Origin: Mesoplasma grammopterae ATCC 49580
GTDB taxonomy: Bacteria; Bacillota_I; Bacilli_A; Mycoplasmatales; Mycoplasmataceae
Assembly (NCBI RefSeq): GCF_000701525.1
Contig: NZ_JNJC01000001.1
Location: forward strand, 248,001 to 312,000
Direction: 5' to 3'
DNA: 64,000 bases
Both the position numbers and the translations under genes were made by a program. The notes under the pieces are model-generated. The model worked only from the letters and a program-made list of their open reading frames with translations. It did not search any database and was not told where the DNA came from. Below are positions 13,303-63,794 of this stretch, piece by piece. Within the stretch, counting starts at the first letter, position 1; each line of letters opens with the position of its first letter.

Positions 13303-14202
13303 TTATCTTAAAGTTTTATCAAATGGTACACCACTTGCTTGAGGCGGTGATGATCATTTTGATGCAATAACCATTACAACAATTGACATGATGAATGGAA
13401 GTGCTCTTGGTAATGAGTTTCATCCCGTAATTTTTTGACCAATGCTAAACATTATTGAAAATATTATACATAACATAACAATTAAGCTTACTCTTCATTG
13501 ACCAATTATCATAATAGCTAATGCAATAAATCCTAATCCTTGAACACTTCCATTAAAATTTTGAAGTGATTGGGTAACGACAAACATTGTTCCTGCTAAA
13601 CCAGCTATAGCACCTGAAATAATTATACAAACAAATCTATATCTATTAACTTTAACTCCTGCTGCGTCTAGGGCTTGTGGGTTTTCCCCAGCGGCTATAT
13701 GTCTCGTACCTACTTTTGTAAAAGTAAAATATAAACCTATTGTAACAGTGACTAGCATTGTAAATATGGCATAAGCAATAAAGTAATTTAATGATATTAG
13801 CTTAGGACTTAGTGACCCTAAAATAGTACCACCAGTTCCGAATCCTTGAATATGAACAATAAATAATGCAATACCTTGCGCTAATAAATTAATCACTGTA
13901 CCAGAAATAATTTGATCAGTTTTTAATTTTAAAACCATTAATGTTTGTAGCAATGAAAATAAACCTGCAACAACCATTGAAAATAATGCACCAACTAATA
14001 AGTATAAGACATGTAAGTCTTCAACGTTATTTGATGTTTTTTTAACCATAAAGCAAAATGATACATATGCCAAAGCACCGATTGTCATAAAACCTTCAAT
14101 TCCAAGGTTTACAACCCCTGATCTTTCCGAAAACATTCCTGATATAGCTGCTAATGTGAAAACAACAAAAAATCCTAATGCTAAACTAAATATTGCTTCC
14201 AT
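13303..14202 (-). CDS. Nucleoside ABC transporter permease (BMP/NupQ type)
   Basis: 299-residue inner-membrane permease of the branched-chain/ribose permease superfamily. The N-terminal segment SERSGVVNLGIEGFMTIGAL is the diagnostic motif of the YufQ/NupQ nucleoside permeases; a GTMFVVTQSLQNFNGSVQG stretch matches the cytoplasmic coupling region. The start has ATGGAGGTT as ribosome site and overlaps the previous permease gene by 17 bases. Pairs with the 612-residue permease upstream to form the membrane channel for purine nucleosides. Confidence 0.9.
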
Positions 14203-16024
14203 AAATTTTTACAACCTCCATTTGTTTTTCTAGTAGATCGATTTTTAATTTTCTAATTTTTAATTTTTTAAATGTTCTAGATGCTTTTTTTGCTTCTAAC
14301 TCTTTTATTTCTTTTTTATAAATTAGTTTTAAATCATTTAAATATGTTTTCGCTTCTTGTTTTGTTGATGCAAAATTATTTTTAAAATATTTTATTTGTG
14401 ACTCTTGCTTATTAATTAAAGAAACAGCCTTTAATTCTAACTTATTTTTCTTAGCTATTAATTTTTCTTGTTCTTTAATGTTTGAGTTTGATAAAGATTC
14501 TTTTATATTTTGTATTTCAGATTCTAGTGAAACAACCTGATCCAAAATAGGAAATGTTGTAGAATTGTATTTACCTTCATAAACTTTTTTCAAACCTTTA
14601 ATTGAATGTTCATTATATTTATCTAACTCTTTATTTATAAGTAAGTGTTTTTCCATTTTTAAATCTTTTATTTTATTTTTAATTTTTGAGATTTGGAATG
14701 CTTTATTTTCTTTATACTCACTTGTTAGACTATTTAATTCATTTCTAAAAATTTCAATATTTTCTGATTTATTTTGTTTTTGCTTTTTCAACTCTTTTAT
14801 TTTTAATTTTTCATTTGTTGAATCTAAATTCAAAATAAGAATATTTTTTTCTTTTTTCAATTCTTTAACATGAGAATTTATAATTTCAATTTCAGATTTA
14901 AATTTTGGATTTCTAATTTTATGAATAATAATATTTACATAATTAGAAATATTTATTTTCATTAATAATAGATACATAGTTGAAAACAATATTATTATTC
15001 CAAATAATAAATCTGATGTTTCTGAAGGAAGTCCCATGTATTGAGGTGAATTCATAGTTAATTGAATTCCATCTTTTAAAACAGCTCACAATATTGCAAC
15101 TGGTATTATTCCCAAGAAGTTATTAAATGCTACTAATGCAATTGGTATACCATCAAATCCTAATAAAGGCATAATGTCATTTGTTACAGATATGTTACTC
15201 TTTAATCCAAAATAATAAAAAAATCCAGCAGCTGATATAAATACCCCTTGTAACGCTGTTACACCAATAATAAATGAGTTTGTTTTTATACCTGCATATT
15301 TAGCTGCTGTAGATTGAGTTCCAACAACCTTATATTTATAACCAACTGTTGTAGTTTCACAAACAACAAATACCAATACTATTGAAACTATTGCAAAGAA
15401 AATTGCAAAGACTCACAATTGTGATCCAAATACTTCAGGTAAATTTGGTGAGTTTAATTGAGTATCAAATTTAATAAATAAAACATATTTAAGTAAATAT
15501 CATAATACTCAGTTTATAACTATTGAAGTTGCAACTTCATGAATATTGAATAAAACTTTTAATATCCCAGTAAGTGATGAAACTATTGCACCTGATACTA
15601 TAAAAATTAGAAATAATAAAATTCCATATCCACCAGGTAAATTAGAGAAATCAGAACCACCTGTTACAGCATTCAAGAATAGATATGTTATTAATAAACC
15701 ACCTATGGCTTGACCACTACCTCCCATATTGAACAGTTTTATTCTAAAACCTAATGCTAATCCAAGACCCAAAAGTATAAATACAGCCAATAATATAACT
15801 GTCCCTTCTGGTTCAACTGGTGAAGTAAAAGGTTTAATTAAGCTACTGAAAATAAAACCAAACCCATTCATACCAAAGCAATATAAAAATATAATTCCAC
15901 AAAGCAATCCTAAGATAATTGAAATGAATGATACTTTGACATAAGAAGTTTTTGTTTTAAAAGTGGTTGATTTAACATATGCTATTGATTTTGTTTTAAA
16001 TTTTCATTGATTAATTTTTCTCAT
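14186..16024 (-). CDS. Nucleoside ABC transporter permease with a long C-terminal coiled-coil extension
   Basis: 612 residues. The first ~355 residues are a YufP/NupP-type permease with NMGGSGQAIGG and GTQSTAAKYAGI segments. Normal family members end near residue 350-360. Here, after the last membrane segment (FGIIILFSTMYLLLM), about 240 residues of Lys/Glu/Asn-rich helix follow, with heptad-like spacing and no hydrophobic segment, so a cytoplasmic coiled coil is inferred. The reading frame is continuous through UGA-Trp codons and the downstream gene overlaps its end, so the extension is genuine rather than a frameshift. Ribosome site GGTGGAG lies in the end of the ATPase gene. Confidence 0.88.
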
Positions 16025-17572: not shown

Positions 17573-18949
17573 TTACTCATTGATTTTTTCTGTACTTTTG
17601 TTAAGTTCGTTTAGTATGGTTTTGGTGTAATCATCAATTGGTTCTTGCGCGATTATAGTTCCTGTTGAAGGTATTGTTCCATTGATATATTTAGAAAATA
17701 ATGATTTTGAAGCTTCTGTTAGAGCTTCTGCAGTGAAGTATTCTTTAATTTTGATAGCTAAATCTTCATCTAAAAGATTTGATCCTCCATAAGACATTGT
17801 TCCGTTAACCCAAACATCAGTGCCTGTTCAAAGTTCTTTGTCACCTATGTTTACATCCACAAATTCTGATTTATTATCATTTATAACTTCTTTTGTTATT
17901 TGAATTTTATCTTTAAAACCTTCATCCACTTTTTTCAAAATATCTGGGTATTGCTCATTATACATTCATTCCGGAGTGTGAGCCAAAGAAACTATTGCTG
18001 CATTTTTTAAATCTTTTTCTGCTGAAGTAATGAACCTATTTTCAGCATCTTTCCCATATGATTCTGCTTGATTTGTATCAACCCCAATCACTTTTCAAGA
18101 TGTATCATAACTAAGCGCATCAGAAGTTTGAGGGCCTGCAACAGGCATTAAAACATTTGGCTTGATTGATTTTGAAGTGTCTCTTAAATTATCTAATACT
18201 AGTTTTGATTGACCTATAAGAAAACTATTTGAAAACCATGTTGTATCATCTTTGGATTTTGGTCAACCTTTTTGAGCTTTTGTAACAGTTACATTTCTAG
18301 CCGCTTCAGGGATATTAAAATAATTTAAGAACTCTTCATCTTTTTTTGCTAAATGATTGTAAACCTCTATTGAAGCCAAATATCCAACAATAAAATTATC
18401 TACCGATGCTGGATTAGAAACTCCACCATAAGCACCTATTGATAATGTATTATTTGCATAATTTTCGTTTTTTAATGAATATATTATTGATGACATTCCG
18501 GCATAGAATCCAGAAACATCTCCTCTAAACACAACTCCTATTTCATTGTTTGCAGCGGTGTTTGAATCTAATATTATTGTAGATCCTGAGTTTTTCATAA
18601 CTTCTGCAGCTTGGTGTTCACCTTCCCCAGGCATTGCATGGTGAAAACCTGGAAGTAAAAGTGTTTTTGCATTGTTGCTTTCAGCTGTTTTATAAGCTCT
18701 TTTCATTGTTTTTGGCGCTGTTGACTCAGGTTGTATGTATGCAATTTTTTGGTTTATTCCTAAAATTTTTTGAACAAACTCTGTTCCAGCTTCGTATGTT
18801 GATTGATTAAAAGATTTATCATCTATTTTACCTGAATCGGTAATTAAATAGATTTCACCAAAGTGTTTTTCTGTTCCACAAGAAATTACTGTAGTGGCAC
18901 TAGTGCTTATTATTGTAGTACTCAATAAAGCTAATAATAGTTTTTTCAT
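17573..18949 (-). CDS. BMP-family nucleoside-binding lipoprotein
   Basis: 458-residue solute-binding lipoprotein of the basic membrane protein (Bmp/PnrA) family. A signal peptide ends in the lipobox TVISC with Cys24 as the lipidated residue. The mature part shows Bmp motifs: ITDSGKIDDKSFNQS near the N-terminus, a LLLPGFHHA-type segment, VVFRGDVSGFYAGM and SIGAYGGVSNPASVDNFIVGY. It presents nucleosides to the two permeases encoded downstream. First gene of the operon; a purine riboswitch and terminator lie in its 5' leader (18972-19069). Start supported by AAGGAG. Confidence 0.92.
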
Positions 18950-19002: not shown

Positions 19003-19007
19003 CTGCT

Positions 19008-19069
19008 CTTATAGTCTTTGGATAGGTCCTAAGGCAGGTCGACAACCCTTTATGTTGTCATGTATAAGT
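19008..19069 (-). ncRNA. Purine riboswitch aptamer, 2'-deoxyguanosine/guanine type
   Basis: Read on the minus strand: P1 from ACTTATA with CTATAAG; P2 GACAAC/GTTGTC closing the 7-nt loop ATAAAGG; junction GACC; P3 closing a CCTA loop; J3/1 GACTATAAG. The loop GG and CC can form the kissing pairs of purine riboswitches. The C of GACTA in J3/1 is the base that pairs with guanine-type ligands (adenine switches have U). Length, L2 and the CCTA loop closely resemble, from memory, the Mesoplasma florum type I 2'-deoxyguanosine aptamer, with changes in P2 and P3 that mostly preserve pairing. Whether guanine or 2'-dG is preferred cannot be settled by eye. It controls the nucleoside transporter-deoD operon. 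Confidence 0.9.
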
Positions 19070-19157
19070 TTTTTTATTCAATTGTTTGAAATATTATATC
19101 TCTTTTTATTTATAAATAAAAGACAAAATAAAAAACACCAGCGGCGTTTTTTACTAA

Positions 19158-20237
19158 TTATTTTTTAATTTCTTTTTTAACTTTTGTTAAACCTGTTCAT
19201 TTACCTTTTGACATATTTTCTTTTAAATGTTTATTGGCTTTAAATTTAACTGTATTTGACGCAGAAATATCAATTGTTTCACCTGTTGATGGGTTAATAC
19301 CTTTTTTTGCTTCCTTATGTATTTTTGTTAGTTTTCCAAAATTTGAAATTAAAACTTCTTCATTATTTAAAATTGCATTACTCATGATTTCAAAAGCACT
19401 ATCAACTACTTGTTTAACAGATTTTTTGGTAAATTCAGAATGAGTTTCTTCTAACTTAATTAAAAGATCTTTTTTTGAAACTTGATTGTAGTGTTTTTTA
19501 ATAACATATTTTGATTCAGTTTTAGCTGTTGCTACTACTTTAACTTCTTCAACTTTTTTAGCTACTGGTTTAGCTGTAGTTTTTTTAGCTACTGGTTTAG
19601 CTGTAGTTTTTTTAGTTGTTGGTTTTTTAGCTACTACTTTAACTTCTTCAACTTTAACTTCTTCAACTTTTTTAGCTACTGGTTTTTTAGCTTTTTTCTT
19701 AGCTGGTTGTTTTGCAATAATTTCTTCTTCTAATTTTTCTTCTAATTCAATTGCTTCTTGCTTAATTTCTTCTTTTGTAATTTCTTTAGTTTCTTCAATA
19801 GCAGTTGTACTTCCTTTTTCTGAAAGGATTTTGTTAATTTTATTTTCGTTTACAAAGCTCAATATTATTGAAACTACTAAGAATATGATTCCAACAAGAG
19901 CTATTCAATTAATTAATAAATCCCAAAAAATTGGCAACAAGAATGTACTGTATGTTTCTGTTGTCCCAACAGTTGCCACTAATTTGAATTGAGCAAATGA
20001 TTTAAATCCCATTGGACCTGTTAAAAAGTGACTTAGACCTTTATCTGTAAATCACGCTGCATCTATGTGTTTACTTTCTATTAATCCAGAACCTGCGATT
20101 GTTTGTGCTCATTGTGATGTTCCATTTGTAGCTTGGTTTATAAGTTTAAATGCAAATATTAAAGCTATAAATAAAACTAAAAGAAATATTAAAGCAATGG
20201 TTCTTGTATGTTTTTTATTTTTCATTTCGATTGACAT
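19158..20237 (-). CDS. Membrane-anchored protein with C-terminal HU DNA-binding domain
   Basis: 359 residues. Residues 13-33 and about 99-127 are strong membrane segments, separated by a ~65-residue loop. A basic N-terminus (KNKKHTRT) predicts N-in, hence C-terminus in the cytoplasm. Then an acidic helix (~145-175), a Lys/Ala/Pro/Val-rich linker with AKPVAKK repeats, and from about 253 a complete HU/IHF-type domain: SKKDLLIKLEE, ISNFGKL, KGINPSTGETIDISASNTVK (the beta-arm with its intercalating Pro), then FKANKHLKENM. Start chosen at an ATG preceded by AAGGAGG at 20237; without it the membrane segments would be lost. Ordinary HU is about 90 residues and soluble. I infer a tether between membrane and nucleoid. 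Confidence 0.88.
19561..19614 (-). repeat. 27-bp perfect tandem duplication in the linker of the HU-membrane protein
   Basis: Positions 19561-19587 and 19588-19614 are identical, 9 codons each, encoding the AKPVAKKTT-type linker unit twice. Further degenerate copies of the VEEVK and AKK units follow to about 19690, so the linker probably varies in length between strains. Confidence 0.9.
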
Positions 20238-20300
20238 GTTTATGCCTCCTTCTTTTTTATATAATTATAAACAATTATTTTGGTGAGTGAACTTTTAGTG

Positions 20301-22181
20301 TTACTTTTGTTCGGATGCATAGTTATTTTTAAGATAAAACAGCAACATTTGTATGTCTGCAGGGTTAACTCCAGTAATTCTAGAAGCTTGTCCTATGTTT
20401 AATGGTTTAACTTTTTTTAACTTTTGTCTAGCTTCTGTTGCTAAATTTTCAACCTTATCATAATCAATATCTAAAGGTATTTTTTTCTTTTCAAGCTTAA
20501 CAAGTCTTTCAACAGTTTTTCTTTCTGTTTTTACATAACCGGCAAATCTAGTTTCTATTACAATAGACTGAAGCTGATTATTTTTTAGGTTTTGTAAAGA
20601 ACTAATGTACGGAATCATAACCTCTATATCAACAGTTGGTATTTTTAAAATTTCAATTCCACTATATCCATGACTTAAGTCTGCTTGACCCAATTCTTTT
20701 AATTTTATTGCTAGTTCAGACTTGGGAGTAAATCTGATTTCTTCAAGCTCTTTTATTGCGTTATTAATTTCTTCTGTGTATTTCAAGTATTCATTATATT
20801 CTGTTTGTTTAATTAAGCCTATCTTATATCCTTTTTCTTTTAACCTATGTTCAGCATTATCATTTCTTAACAATAATCTGTGTTCTGCCCTACTTGTTAA
20901 AAGTCTATAAGGTTCCCATACACCTTTGTTAATTAAATCATCTATCATGACACCTATATATGCTTCATCTCTTCTTAAAATTAATGGATCTAATCCATCA
21001 ATTTTTCTAGATGCATTAATACCAGCAATTAATCCTTGGCCAGCGGCTTCTTCATAACCACTAGTTCCATTTATTTGACCTGCTGTAAATAAATTATTAA
21101 TATTCTTAATTTCTAATGAGGGATTCAATTGCATAGGATTTACGCAATCGTACTCAATGGCATATGCCCAAGTTTTTACTTCAGCATTTTCAAAACCTGG
21201 CAATGATCTTATCATTAACAATTGAACATCTGTTGGCATTGAAGTTGAAAATCCTTGAATATATCAAGCATCACCTGAAATTGATTCTGGTTCAATAAAA
21301 ATTTGATGAGTTTCTTTTGATGAAAATCTTACAATTTTGTCTTCAAAACTTGGGCAGTATCTAGGGCCTATAGATTCTACTTTACCTGAATACATTGCTG
21401 ATTTTGTCAAATTATCTTCGATTATTTTTTTTGTATCAGAACTTGAATGAATTAAGTAGCAAAGTTCTTGTTCTTCAATTGGTGTGTATTCGTTTGTAGA
21501 AAAACTGAAAGCTAATTTTGCATCAGTGCCTGGTTCTTTAATAGCTTTAGAAAGATCAACAGAGTTTTTGTATATTCTTGGAGGAGTTCCTGTTTTAAAT
21601 CTAAAAAGTTCAACTCCAGATTTTTTTAAAGATTCACTTATTCCATTAGATGTTGGTTCTTCGTTTGGTCCTGAAGAAAACTTTTCATGTCCTGTTAAGA
21701 TTTCTGATTTTAAATATGTTCCCGTTGTTAAAACAACACATTTTGATTTTAAAATTTCTCCATCTTTTAATAAAACACCCGTTACTGTATTATTTTCAAT
21801 AATAAGATCTGTTGCAATAGACTCTATTAATTCTAAATTCATTTGTTCTTCAACAATTTTTTGCATATATTTTGAATATTCTTCTTTATCTGATTGGACT
21901 CTTAATGCTCAAACACCAGGCCCTCTAGAAGAATTAAGTAGTTTTGTTTGTAAAGCTGTTTTATCAGCAGCTTTTGCCATTTCGCCACCTAATGCGTCAA
22001 TTTCTCTTACAACTATACCTTTTGCAGGTCCACCAACACTAGGGTTGCAAGGCATTGCGGCGATTCTATCTTTATAAAGATTAATTAATGCTGTTTTTTT
22101 GTTTAATCTTGCAGATGCCAAGGCAGCTTCAACACCTGCGTGACCACCACCAATAACAATAACATCAAAATGTTTATTCAT
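20301..22181 (-). CDS. mnmG: tRNA uridine-34 carboxymethylaminomethyl synthase subunit MnmG (GidA)
   Basis: 626 residues. FAD-binding N-terminus [14 protein letters not shown]; family motifs [21 protein letters not shown] and the catalytic-region [10 protein letters not shown]-terminal helical domain that contacts MnmE. Together with MnmE (47806-49164) it installs the cmnm5 group on wobble uridines. Several UGA-Trp codons are read through. Ribosome site AAAAGGAG. It lies upstream of the HU-membrane protein gene on the same strand with a 63-nt gap. Confidence 0.97.
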
Positions 22182-39086: not shown

Positions 39087-39110
39087 AAAATCAGGAAACT
39101 TCCTGATTTT
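39087..39110. terminator. Bidirectional terminator between dnaN and the MreB-like gene
   Basis: Stem AAAATCAGGAA (39087-39097) / TTCCTGATTTT (39100-39110) with T-runs on both strands. It serves dnaN on the plus strand and the convergent gene, whose stop codon is at 39109-39111. Confidence 0.85.
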
Positions 39111-40083
39111 ATTTTTTTGCATTATTAAATTTTAAAGAACCTTCAATATCTGAATATCCACGTTTTTTTGAAATAGTAACTGGGAAGTTAAAGAAATCTT
39201 CAAAGAAATCTTTAACACCACTTATACCAGCTAATTCACCAGTAACATATAATCCGTTTTTAACAACACCACTTCTAACTAATGCTGAAGAATTTTCTAA
39301 AACAGTTGTTATTAAACTTTTGTAGTTTGTAAAAGATTTAATAAATATCTTTTTAAATTCTTCGCTAACACAAACAACACTTCTTCTTTCGTTAGTAATA
39401 ATATCTTTACCAATGATACTTAATTCTAATTCATCTCTTAATTTAATAATTGTTCCAAGTGATCATTTAATTTTTTCAATCATATCGCTATCAACAGAAA
39501 TAGAATATTCTTCTTTAATAAATTGATTTAAAGAATCATCTAAAAATTTCTCAGCATAAATTGTTTCTTTTTCTTTAATTATTTTTCCTTCAACAATTAA
39601 AGCAACTTTAGCATAAGCTTGATTAATATCTAAAATTAATACTCCGTATTCATCTTTAATATCTGCATTAGCACCTAAAGCAGAAAGTATTATTCTTGGA
39701 GAAAAAGAAATTGAAGCAAAGTTTGTATTTTCGTTAAATAAATTTTGGAAGAATTCTTGAATGAAGTCATTATCTGAGTTAGGACAAGATATAACAATTT
39801 TAGCTCCATCAAATTCATCTTTGAATCTTTCAACAAGTATTGTTACATATTGTTTAAAGATTTCTAAATCTTGAATAACATACTTATCAAGGATATTAAC
39901 AACTTTTAAAGGATCATCTAGTCTACCAATAGTATTTTTAACATCACGACCATATAAAACAATTTCAGTTGTTAAAACGTTTCAACAAACTAAACTGAAG
40001 TCATCGTAGATTTTACCTTTCTCAGATGAAATTATTCTTGTAAATTCTTCACCAAAAACTATTCCTATTTTTTTATCACTCAT
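39109..40083 (-). CDS. Divergent MreB/actin-like protein with degenerate ATP site
   Basis: 324 residues, close to the MreB length of ~335-345. It follows MreB block by block: KKIGIVFGEEFTRII (phosphate-1 loop, normally GIDLGTANTL), IVLYGRDVKNTIGR (normally AVGEEAKxMxGR), VVNILDKYVIQDLE (IRPLxDGVIADF), GAKIVISCPNSDND (VVICVPSG), SPRIILSALGANADI (EPxAAAIGAGL), GVLILDINQAYAKVALI (phosphate-2 loop, normally VDIGGGTTE), and NGLYVTGELAGISG (GIVLTGGGALLRG). The key residues of all three nucleotide loops are changed (DLGT to VFGE, DIGGGT to DINQAY, TGGG to TGEL), so ATP hydrolysis looks unlikely. The frame is open, with UGA at Trp33 and one later. AGGA precedes the start. Function unknown; inferred pseudo-actin. 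Confidence 0.82.
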
Positions 40084-40151
40084 AATATTCCTCACTTTTC
40101 TCACATTAATTATAGTATATAATAAACTTAATGTTAGATATAGGTGAATTA

Positions 40152-40679
40152 ATGGCAAATGAAATAATTATTGTTGAGGGTAAATCAGATTCACAAAAAT
40201 TAAAGAAAATTTATGGCGAAAATTTAATAACATTTGAAACAAATGGACTAGGAATTGATGATAAAAAATTAAATTCCATAAAAGAATTAAGTAAAAAAAA
40301 TAATATTATAATTTTTACAGATCCAGACGGACCAGGTAAAAAAATCAGAGAAACAATAATTGAATTTTTAGATGTTGATGTTTTTAATGCATTTGTTTCA
40401 AAACAAGACATTGATAAAAATTCTAAAAAAATAGGCTTAGCTGAAGCAAGTGAAGAAGCTATTAAAAAAGCTTTAGATAATTTAATTACGTATAATAAAA
40501 ATAATATTTCAATTTCTTGAGATGAATATGTGAAAAATGATTTTTACATAAAAGCAAACAGAGTGATAATCGCTAATCATTTTAGTTTGAGTGAAGATAT
40601 GAGTTCAAAGAGTTTATTCAAATGACTAAATTGAATGAATTTAAAAGCTAAAGATATAGAAAAAATAATAGGTGAGTAG
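40152..40679 (+). CDS. rnmV: Ribonuclease M5
   Basis: 175 residues. Single TOPRIM domain: IIIVEGKSDSQKL with catalytic Glu, and IIFTDPDGPGKKIRE with the metal-binding aspartates. It matures the 5S rRNA 3' and 5' ends in low-GC Gram-positives. I chose the ATG at 40152 with AGGTGAATTA upstream over an ATG 21 bases earlier that has no ribosome site. rnmV-rsmA adjacency is conserved in Firmicutes. Confidence 0.95.
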
Positions 40680-61415: not shown

Positions 61416-63794
61416 ATGAGTATTAAATTAAAAAATATAACAATTGACTATGGTAATTTTTTAGCGGTTGATGATTTAAATATAAGTATTAATTCAGGTG
61501 AACTTGTTTCACTTTTAGGACCATCAGGTTGTGGAAAAACAACTGCTTTAAATGCTATTGCTGGATTAATAAATACAACAAAGGGTCAAATTCTTTTTGA
61601 TGGAGTTGATGTAACACATAAATCAAGTCAAAAAAGAAATATTGGACTAGTTTTCCAAAGTTATGCTTTATATACACACATGAGTGTATTTAAAAACATT
61701 GCGTACCCTTTATATCACTCAAAAGACTTTAAATCTGAATTATCATCAGACAACGCCAAGTACAAAAGTAGACTTAAAGCTTTAAATGATTCAAAAGGTT
61801 ATGAATTAATCATTAAACAACAAAATGATTTCACAAATAATTTAAAAAGCTTTTTAAAACAAATAAACAACAAAATCTCTCAATTAGAAGGATTATTCTT
61901 AAAAGAGCATAAGGACTCTATTGTTAACTATGTAGATTTATTATTTAAAGATAAAGAAAATACAACAATTATAAATAATCACTTAGTTAGTTATTTATAT
62001 GATAAATTAAAAATTAAATTCAACGAGATTTCGTCAACAATGGAACAAGTTATTGCAGATAATTATAAAGCAGTTATGCTTCATGATTTAGATATGAGAT
62101 TTAAAAATACAATCAAACATTATGCATCAACAAATTCAAATAATTTATCAAAAAATAAAAAACATTTAGGTGAATTAATCAAAACAAGTAAAACAACTAA
62201 AAAATCAATAATTAAAGAAGAAAAAACTTTAGGATTAGAATTAAATATTTTTAGCAATGCTTCAAATGATTTATATGAACAATATTTAATTCAAAAAAAT
62301 GATATTACTGAGAATTTTATTGACAAAAACATAACAGTAATTGCTGATGAAATTAATGACTACTTTACAACTGTAATAGAAAAAATTAAAACACCAATTA
62401 TTTCAGGAAATAAGATTGAATTAACATTAAAAGACATCAAAAAAAACATTGATCAATTCAAGAAAAACTATATTTCTCAAAATTTAAAATTAATAAACTC
62501 ATTTATTAAAGAACAATCAAAAACTTTACCTAAAAATATTGTATTAAAAGATCAAATGAAAATAGTTTTAGGAAGCAATGTTTTAACAGAGCTTAATGCA
62601 ATGGAACAATTGATGAATACAACTTTAGAAGCTAAATATTTAGATTTACTTTCAAATTCAGCTCAAACAGAATTTAGTACTTTAACTAATTATTATGATT
62701 TTGAAATTGAAGAAGTTTTAAACTTTAAAAATGACAATGATGTAATTAATAAACAAAAAGAAAATGCTGAAAAAGAAATTAAAAAAATTTTAAATGAAAC
62801 AGGAATTGATATTTTTTCAGTTGAAAATGATAATTATGCTAAATATGTTAGTGAAAAAGAAATTGTAGTTGATTCATTGTTATCTCAAAATGTTACAAAA
62901 ATTGAGGACATGATTGAAGATAAGTTCTTAGCACTACCTAATATGATTGAAAAAGAATTAGAAGTTAAATCAAAAATAATTGAAACAAAAGAACTTGAAG
63001 AAGAAATCAGAAAAAACATTTATTCAAGAAAAAGAAAAATTAGAGAATTAGTTTTTGAAACAGCTAAACAAGTTGAGATTGAAAATCAATTAAATAAAAA
63101 GCCAAGTGAACTTTCAGGTGGTCAACAACAACGTGTTGCTATTGCCAGAGCAATAGTTAAAAAACCAAGTATTTTATTAATGGATGAACCTTTATCAAAC
63201 TTAGATGCAAAATTACGTTTAACAACAAGAGAATGAATTAAAAGATTCCAACAAAAAGTTGGTATTACAACTATTTTTGTTACTCACGATCAAGAAGAAG
63301 CAATGAGTATTTCAGATTCTATCTTTGTTATGAACAAAGGTGTATTACAACAATCCGGTACACCATTAGAAATTTATAATAAACCAGTAAACAAATTTGT
63401 TGCTAAATTTATCGGAACACCAAACGTAAACTTCATAAACGTTAAAATTAATAAATCAAAAATTATTTTACCTTCAAATGAAGTTTTAAAAATTAAGAAA
63501 TTAGATATTGAAAAATCAGAGTGAACATTAGGTGTTAGACCTGAAAGATTAACATTAGACAAAAAAGGTGGAAAAGTTCACATTGGCTCAGGAGACGTTG
63601 TTCTTGTTGAACAATTAGGAAAACAAAACCACATTAAAGTTCGTTTAATAACTGGTGAAGAAGTAACAATTATTCTTGAACCACATGAATGAAATACATT
63701 AAAAAATAATTCAAGACTTGATTTATATGCGAGAAAAGAAGACTTGTACTTATTTAATGATGAAACTAATCTTGTAGAGGTCTCATATGAATAA
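61416..63794 (+). CDS. MalK/UgpC-type ABC ATPase with a ~410-residue insertion
   Basis: 792 residues. Walker [10 protein letters not shown] at 35-43, Q-loop [12 protein letters not shown] at 80-91, then residues ~105-555 of Lys/Asn/Glu-rich helical sequence, then signature [14 protein letters not shown] at 566, Walker B ILLMDEP at 586-592, the switch His in [13 protein letters not shown], and a C-terminal TOBE-like regulatory domain (VRPERLTL ... LGKQNHIKV). Normal MalK or UgpC has only ~40 residues between Q-loop and signature. The insertion is in the helical subdomain. Mycoplasma UgpC-type proteins are known to be enlarged in the same place, but less so. The next gene starts within its last codons (ATATGAATAA). 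Confidence 0.9.

Follow-up and report, generated by a model that had tools for sequence, protein, structure and literature searches.

Canonical HU is a stand-alone, abundant and soluble nucleoid protein of about 90 amino acids. Other HU-superfamily proteins, the HU-CCDC81/SPOR and related HU clades of Bacteroidetes, reportedly contain membrane segments, and Burroughs et al. are said to have proposed a link to chromosome partition for them in 2017.

As an idea, the membrane-anchored nucleoid protein is known from at least two described systems: (i) RocS of Streptococcus pneumoniae, which has an N-terminal HTH, a coiled coil/DUF536 and a C-terminal amphipathic helix, binds DNA and the membrane, and the pneumococcus, whose ParABS system is incomplete, relies on it for chromosome segregation (PMC11500499); and (ii) Rv3852 of Mycobacterium tuberculosis, a membrane-anchored nucleoid-associated protein with a single C-terminal transmembrane helix, which is not described as having an HU domain (PMC8233713). 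Furthermore, mycobacterial HupB combines an HU domain with a long Lys/Ala/Pro (PAKK) region, and this PAKK/KAAK tail is required for stable HupB-DNA binding (PMC5676037).

Here we describe a gene that lies in a window of 64,000 nucleotides from Mesoplasma grammopterae ATCC 49580 (contig NZ_JNJC01000001.1) and that comparative sequence data strongly support as encoding a membrane-anchored HU protein. Membrane segments together with a cytoplasmic DNA-binding domain, the combination that defines membrane-anchored nucleoid-associated proteins, are both predicted for its product. Like the members of the HU/IHF family (PF00216), this protein has a complete HU domain and an NP-x-TG arm; unlike soluble HU, it is not a stand-alone domain but a chain of 359 residues that adds a two-helix anchor, an acidic helix, a basic linker and a WTG tail. 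Like RocS, it combines in a single protein one end for DNA and another for the membrane; however, its own ends are an N-terminal transmembrane hairpin and a C-terminal HU domain, joined by a linker, and no Pfam match to the RocS-family parts was found in it. By analogy, its logic appears comparable to that of RocS and Rv3852, while the parts are different. The HU-CCDC81/SPOR proteins resemble it in having an HU-superfamily domain and membrane segments, but belong to a different HU clade; neither HU-CCDC81 nor SPOR matched the window protein at E<=1, and its relatives gave only sub-threshold HU-CCDC81 matches. Whereas the HupB tail is C-terminal and free, the basic region of the window protein is N-terminal of the HU domain and joins it to the membrane. 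A search of the open-access literature with a few terms found no PF00216-type HU on such an anchor in the Mesoplasma/Entomoplasma group, and the main text of the M. florum characterization paper does not mention nucleoid or DNA-binding proteins (PMC7745072).

Reading frame and expression signals

The gene, its signals and its conserved neighbor are all on the minus strand:

19158..20237, minus strand: membrane-anchored HU gene, a single open reading frame from ATG, 359 aa in code 4 (UGA = Trp)
20264..20291, minus strand: promoter-like TTCACT-16-TATAAT; orthologues keep TATAAT and mostly TTCACT
20245..20251, minus strand: Shine-Dalgarno sequence AAGGAGG, 7 nt before the ATG; AGGAGG in 7/7 genus orthologues
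19127..19155, minus strand: intrinsic terminator, a 13-pair stem followed by a T run; a terminator-like hairpin lies near the same place in orthologues
20301..22181, minus strand: mnmG (gidA), conserved upstream neighbor (TIGR00136, 830 bits); adjacent also in the sister-genus relative (G049/L038)

The original prediction described one uninterrupted frame, and under code 4 this is what we find. It had also named two circumstances in which the idea of a membrane tether would fail, namely a true start located after the second hydrophobic segment (at 19862) and a frame error joining two genes, either of which would leave a soluble HU. Translation with table 11 does list only a 221-aa frame, beginning at 19862. 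However, the breaks seen with table 11 are four TGA codons that correspond to residues 43, 62, 111 and 347 and are read as Trp in code 4, and the Trp residues at 62, 111 and 347 are invariant in a nine-row alignment of relatives (alignment A1). Furthermore, the frame is unbroken in seven genomes, including those of six genus orthologues, the Shine-Dalgarno sequence serving the start at 20237 is conserved, and the anchor, which a late start would exclude, has an omega of only 0.08–0.17. An artefact of either kind is therefore extremely improbable.

Since promoter-like matches are no more frequent around 20264..20291 than in shuffles, the promoter-like site was rated on its conservation. The gene stands alone; its neighbors are mnmG and a lipoprotein-like gene that is preceded by a 2'-dG-I riboswitch. 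The distance to dnaA, which is also in the window, is about 16 kb.

Domain organization and predicted topology

A short basic N-terminus is followed, from N to C, by these parts:

20139..20198, minus strand: transmembrane helix 1, residues 14-33; Kyte-Doolittle mean 3.04 (peak 14-32); model helix 3-49
19941..20138, minus strand: predicted extracellular loop, residues 34-99; net charge 0; W62, F63, G74, P75, G77 and S80 invariant (alignment A3)
19851..19940, minus strand: transmembrane helix 2 region, residues 100-129; P102, D106, N110 and W111 invariant
19716..19850, minus strand: acidic helix region, residues 130-174; net charge -7
19488..19715, minus strand: Lys/Ala/Pro linker, residues 175-250; net charge +18; tandem repeats; length varies between species
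19212..19478, minus strand: HU/IHF-fold DNA-binding domain, residues 254-342; PF00216 profile positions 2-89 of 90
19161..19208, minus strand: basic C-terminal tail; W347, T348 and G349 invariant in 9/9 rows of alignment A1, including G049 and G138

The architecture first read from the letters alone was recovered by these analyses. Both membrane segments are evident in hydropathy (means 3.0 and 2.9, the latter for a peak at 111-129) and in a single-sequence AlphaFold model, which contains two long helices (3-49 and 93-140) and assigns its membrane parts a pLDDT of mostly 73–82. The HU part of the same model is poor (pLDDT <60), so that structure prediction supports the two helices but not the HU domain. 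The acidic helix and the variable linker are likewise present, the latter with 25 K/R and with tandem repeats of 27 bp and 15 bp. HC2/H1-like matches on the linker look like an effect of composition, and homology was rejected.

That the HU domain is complete was confirmed by a PF00216 match of 85.4 bits (E 3e-24; gathering score 22.4) over the full domain. A search of solved structures returned 36 matching chains, nearly all of them of the HU/IHF type, with PDB HU chains at E 3e-14. The beta-arm tip is present as NPSTG, and N315, P316, T318 and G319 are invariant in alignment A1. The HU part has a pI of 9.2, against 6.3 for the genome's soluble HU; taken together with the charge of the linker, this makes the DNA-facing part more basic than the housekeeping HU.

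The HU domain is predicted to face the cytoplasm on an N-in/C-in hairpin, because the N-terminus is positive (4 K/R, 1 D/E), the loop is neutral, the number of helices is even and the linker is rich in K/R. The same charge bias, in a stronger form, is found in a group of paralogues described below (subfamily C), and the positive-inside reasoning that had placed the HU domain inside the cell holds.

Conservation and selection

Uninterrupted orthologues were found in all six of the other genus genomes searched (94% identity in the genus relative G004), about 13–20 kb away from the end of the record where this is a single contig, and M. florum almost certainly has one. Furthermore, the sister genus g4 encodes a full-length relative (G049), 39–40% identical, whose gene also follows mnmG. 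The same architecture, which the original prediction had suggested seeking in other Mollicutes, is present in the other genus members searched.

Omega was computed by NG86 against the six genus orthologues, as rough pairwise estimates with a small dS for the nearest pair; G049 and G138 were left out, being too distant to use. The whole gene gave 0.17–0.28 within the genus, and the individual parts gave 0.08–0.17 (anchor), 0.34–0.62 (linker) and 0.07–0.29 (HU), while the distance between the second transmembrane helix and the HU domain ranges from 112 to 206 aa within the genus. On these estimates, purifying selection acts on both the anchor and the HU domain while the linker drifts, which is how a protein with two functional ends joined by a flexible tether would be expected to evolve.

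HU genes in the genome and the class

The genome (807 kb, 8 contigs) has four HU-fold loci, only one of which is in the window, as anticipated by the suggestion that this might be the sole HU of the window but not of the genome. A separate soluble HU was also found (L001); it is canonical, 90 aa long, and its gene adjoins a gpsA-like gene. A second membrane HU has 375 aa. Another locus (L004/L130, contig position C5:12370) encodes a subfamily B HU fragment that lacks a membrane anchor, the paralogue being intact in other species and decayed here.

Most genomes in a sample of 296 from the class contain one or two HU loci, and those of the genus of the window contain three to six. A quick HU-domain tree separates the soluble HUs from the others (SH-aLRT 86) and unites subfamily C in one clade (100), the remainder being weakly resolved, with long branches. 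Elsewhere in the class, four genomes of genus g158 (G315, G339, G362 and G368) have 7–15 HU copies in only 0.7–0.9 Mb; these are possibly phytoplasmas with mobile-unit HU genes.

A candidate tether between nucleoid and membrane

We consider it probable that the window protein is a nucleoid protein whose membrane anchor serves to tether DNA. This is the most likely reading because the HU part is basic, its NP-x-TG motif is kept, the linker carries a charge of +18, and neither ParB_N nor AAA_31 (ParA-type) matched anywhere in the genome, although the controls were detected. In the proposed mechanism, the two-helix hairpin would fix the protein in the membrane, and the basic, probably disordered arm of ~110-200 residues would let the cytoplasmic HU domain reach DNA and bind it largely irrespective of sequence, either as a homodimer or together with soluble HU as a heterodimer. 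Many copies could then keep the chromosome at the membrane; in a cell with neither a wall nor ParABS, such tethering may aid the positioning and separation of daughter chromosomes. Association of DNA with the membrane and the terminal organelle is reported for Mycoplasma gallisepticum (PMC8637272).

Chromosome segregation as the main job of the protein is a tentative possibility, to which we would give less weight than to tethering itself. Most other Mollicutes sampled lack the anchor family, which is therefore no general answer to segregation without a wall, and SMC is present in the genome; nor is the position of the gene near the origin a certain guide to where the protein binds. A tether would bear on how a wall-less cell with a small gene set retains its chromosome and passes it on to its daughters: ParA and ParB are not detectable here, yet a membrane-bound HU is kept, as it is in every genus member examined. 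Since M. florum, a near-minimal and non-pathogenic model organism, almost certainly has the orthologue, the idea is directly testable.

The anchor family and its cargo

In ten diverse rows (alignment A3), the anchor has the invariant residues K31, N34, W62, F63, G74, P75, G77, S80, P102, D106, N110 and W111. Such conservation would also suit a one-component regulator that is membrane-bound in the manner of ToxR or CadC, in which the outer loop or the intramembrane D/N would sense a signal and HU would act on a few promoters: the 66-residue loop is strongly conserved, the second helix has its invariant P102, D106 and N110, and paralogues occur in surface-lipoprotein clusters, one of them overlapping an XRE repressor gene. 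However, HU domains generally show low sequence specificity in binding, a basic arm of 110-200 aa suits a long-reach tether, and the loop is much shorter in subfamily C; we consider a regulator of this kind unlikely.

Among 60 genomes, confident anchor matches are confined to g1, g4 and g7, which are genera of the family (the Mesoplasma/Entomoplasma group). A phage or plasmid origin was rejected, as no anchor-domain match was found in phage records, plasmid records or viral contigs. The anchor carries four kinds of cargo, which involve a second domain that we call D: (i) HU (the window protein; L017-L020); (ii) HU followed by D (L024, L038); (iii) D followed by HU (subfamily C, in which the arm-tip proline is lost); and (iv) D alone (L075, L077, L078). 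M. seiffertii (G095) and G138 also carry a diverged second membrane HU.

Domain D is a helical domain of about 68 aa with the consensus DGS..I.E.RSELQK.aNk.R...NLRDMTKKELI.YM and a confident three-helix model (pLDDT 90.5). It has no Pfam family above threshold, Rho_N being a sub-threshold hint only, and no reliable structural relative (Foldseek E >= 0.89; VIA Z <= 5.5). Of 198 genomes of the order, 17 contain it, and these all belong to five genera of the family; in most cases a Lys/Ala/Pro or Glu-rich linker precedes it (loci L101, at C7:10734 of the genome studied here, L118-L124, L086-L095 and L102-L106). Unexpectedly, D caps the Pfam-confirmed ribosomal proteins S5, S6, S16 and L20: S6 and L20 in Williamsoniiplasma lucivorax, L20 in Mesoplasma photuris, S16 in M. 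seiffertii, and S5 and L20 in Spiroplasma sp. TIUS-1. It was also recognized by eye on PTS-type permeases. Two copies of D are present in the genome of the window, one belonging to the second membrane HU and the other at the end of S6; the window protein itself has none.

That D replaces HU in some relatives is not predicted by a pure DNA-tether model unless D also binds nucleic acid; thus, either D is a nucleic-acid binder too, or HU is here a protein-binding module. In the latter case, the HU fold could serve in dimerization or protein binding (for example, with soluble HU), or else bind RNA or polysomes, and the protein would place translation or membrane insertion rather than DNA. The exchange of HU for D on the same anchor, the capping of ribosomal proteins by D and the loss of the arm-tip proline in subfamily C agree with this, as does the report that non-specific DNA binding is missing in one HU homologue of M. 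gallisepticum, because of which DNA binding is not guaranteed by the HU fold (PMC8637272). The window protein, however, keeps the NPSTG arm and a basic surface and has the highly charged linker in addition, and for it we regard a role of this kind as rather improbable.

A broader form of the tether reading would be a lineage-specific modular system, in which one anchor has swappable HU and D modules and D ties the chromosome, the ribosomes and the membrane transporters into one scaffold; we think it doubtful that matters go so far. The family nevertheless points to a small mobile domain common to membrane, nucleoid and ribosomal proteins.

Genes for membrane HU and anchor-D proteins are situated within surface-lipoprotein clusters, both in G002 (L129) and in the genome studied here (L131, C1:21000-28500), and a subfamily C gene overlaps the small XRE repressor gene by 14 bp.

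Other features of the window

The 2'-deoxyguanosine riboswitch (2dG-I, RF01510, 76.5 bits; 19007-19069, minus strand), an element that Rfam describes from M. florum, precedes the lipoprotein-like gene at 17573-18949, which likely starts a nucleoside-uptake cluster. At 39109-40158 (minus strand), adjoining dnaN near the origin, is a gene for a divergent MreB-like protein (~108 bits to MreBH, cut-off 515), in a bacterium that is wall-less and presumably non-helical. Two transporter genes have unusual additions: an ABC-permease-like protein of 612 aa (14186-16024, minus strand) ends in a Lys/Glu-rich, probably coiled-coil extension of ~240 residues, and a sugar-type ABC ATPase of 792 aa (61416-63794, plus strand) has an insertion of several hundred residues between the Walker A and signature motifs.
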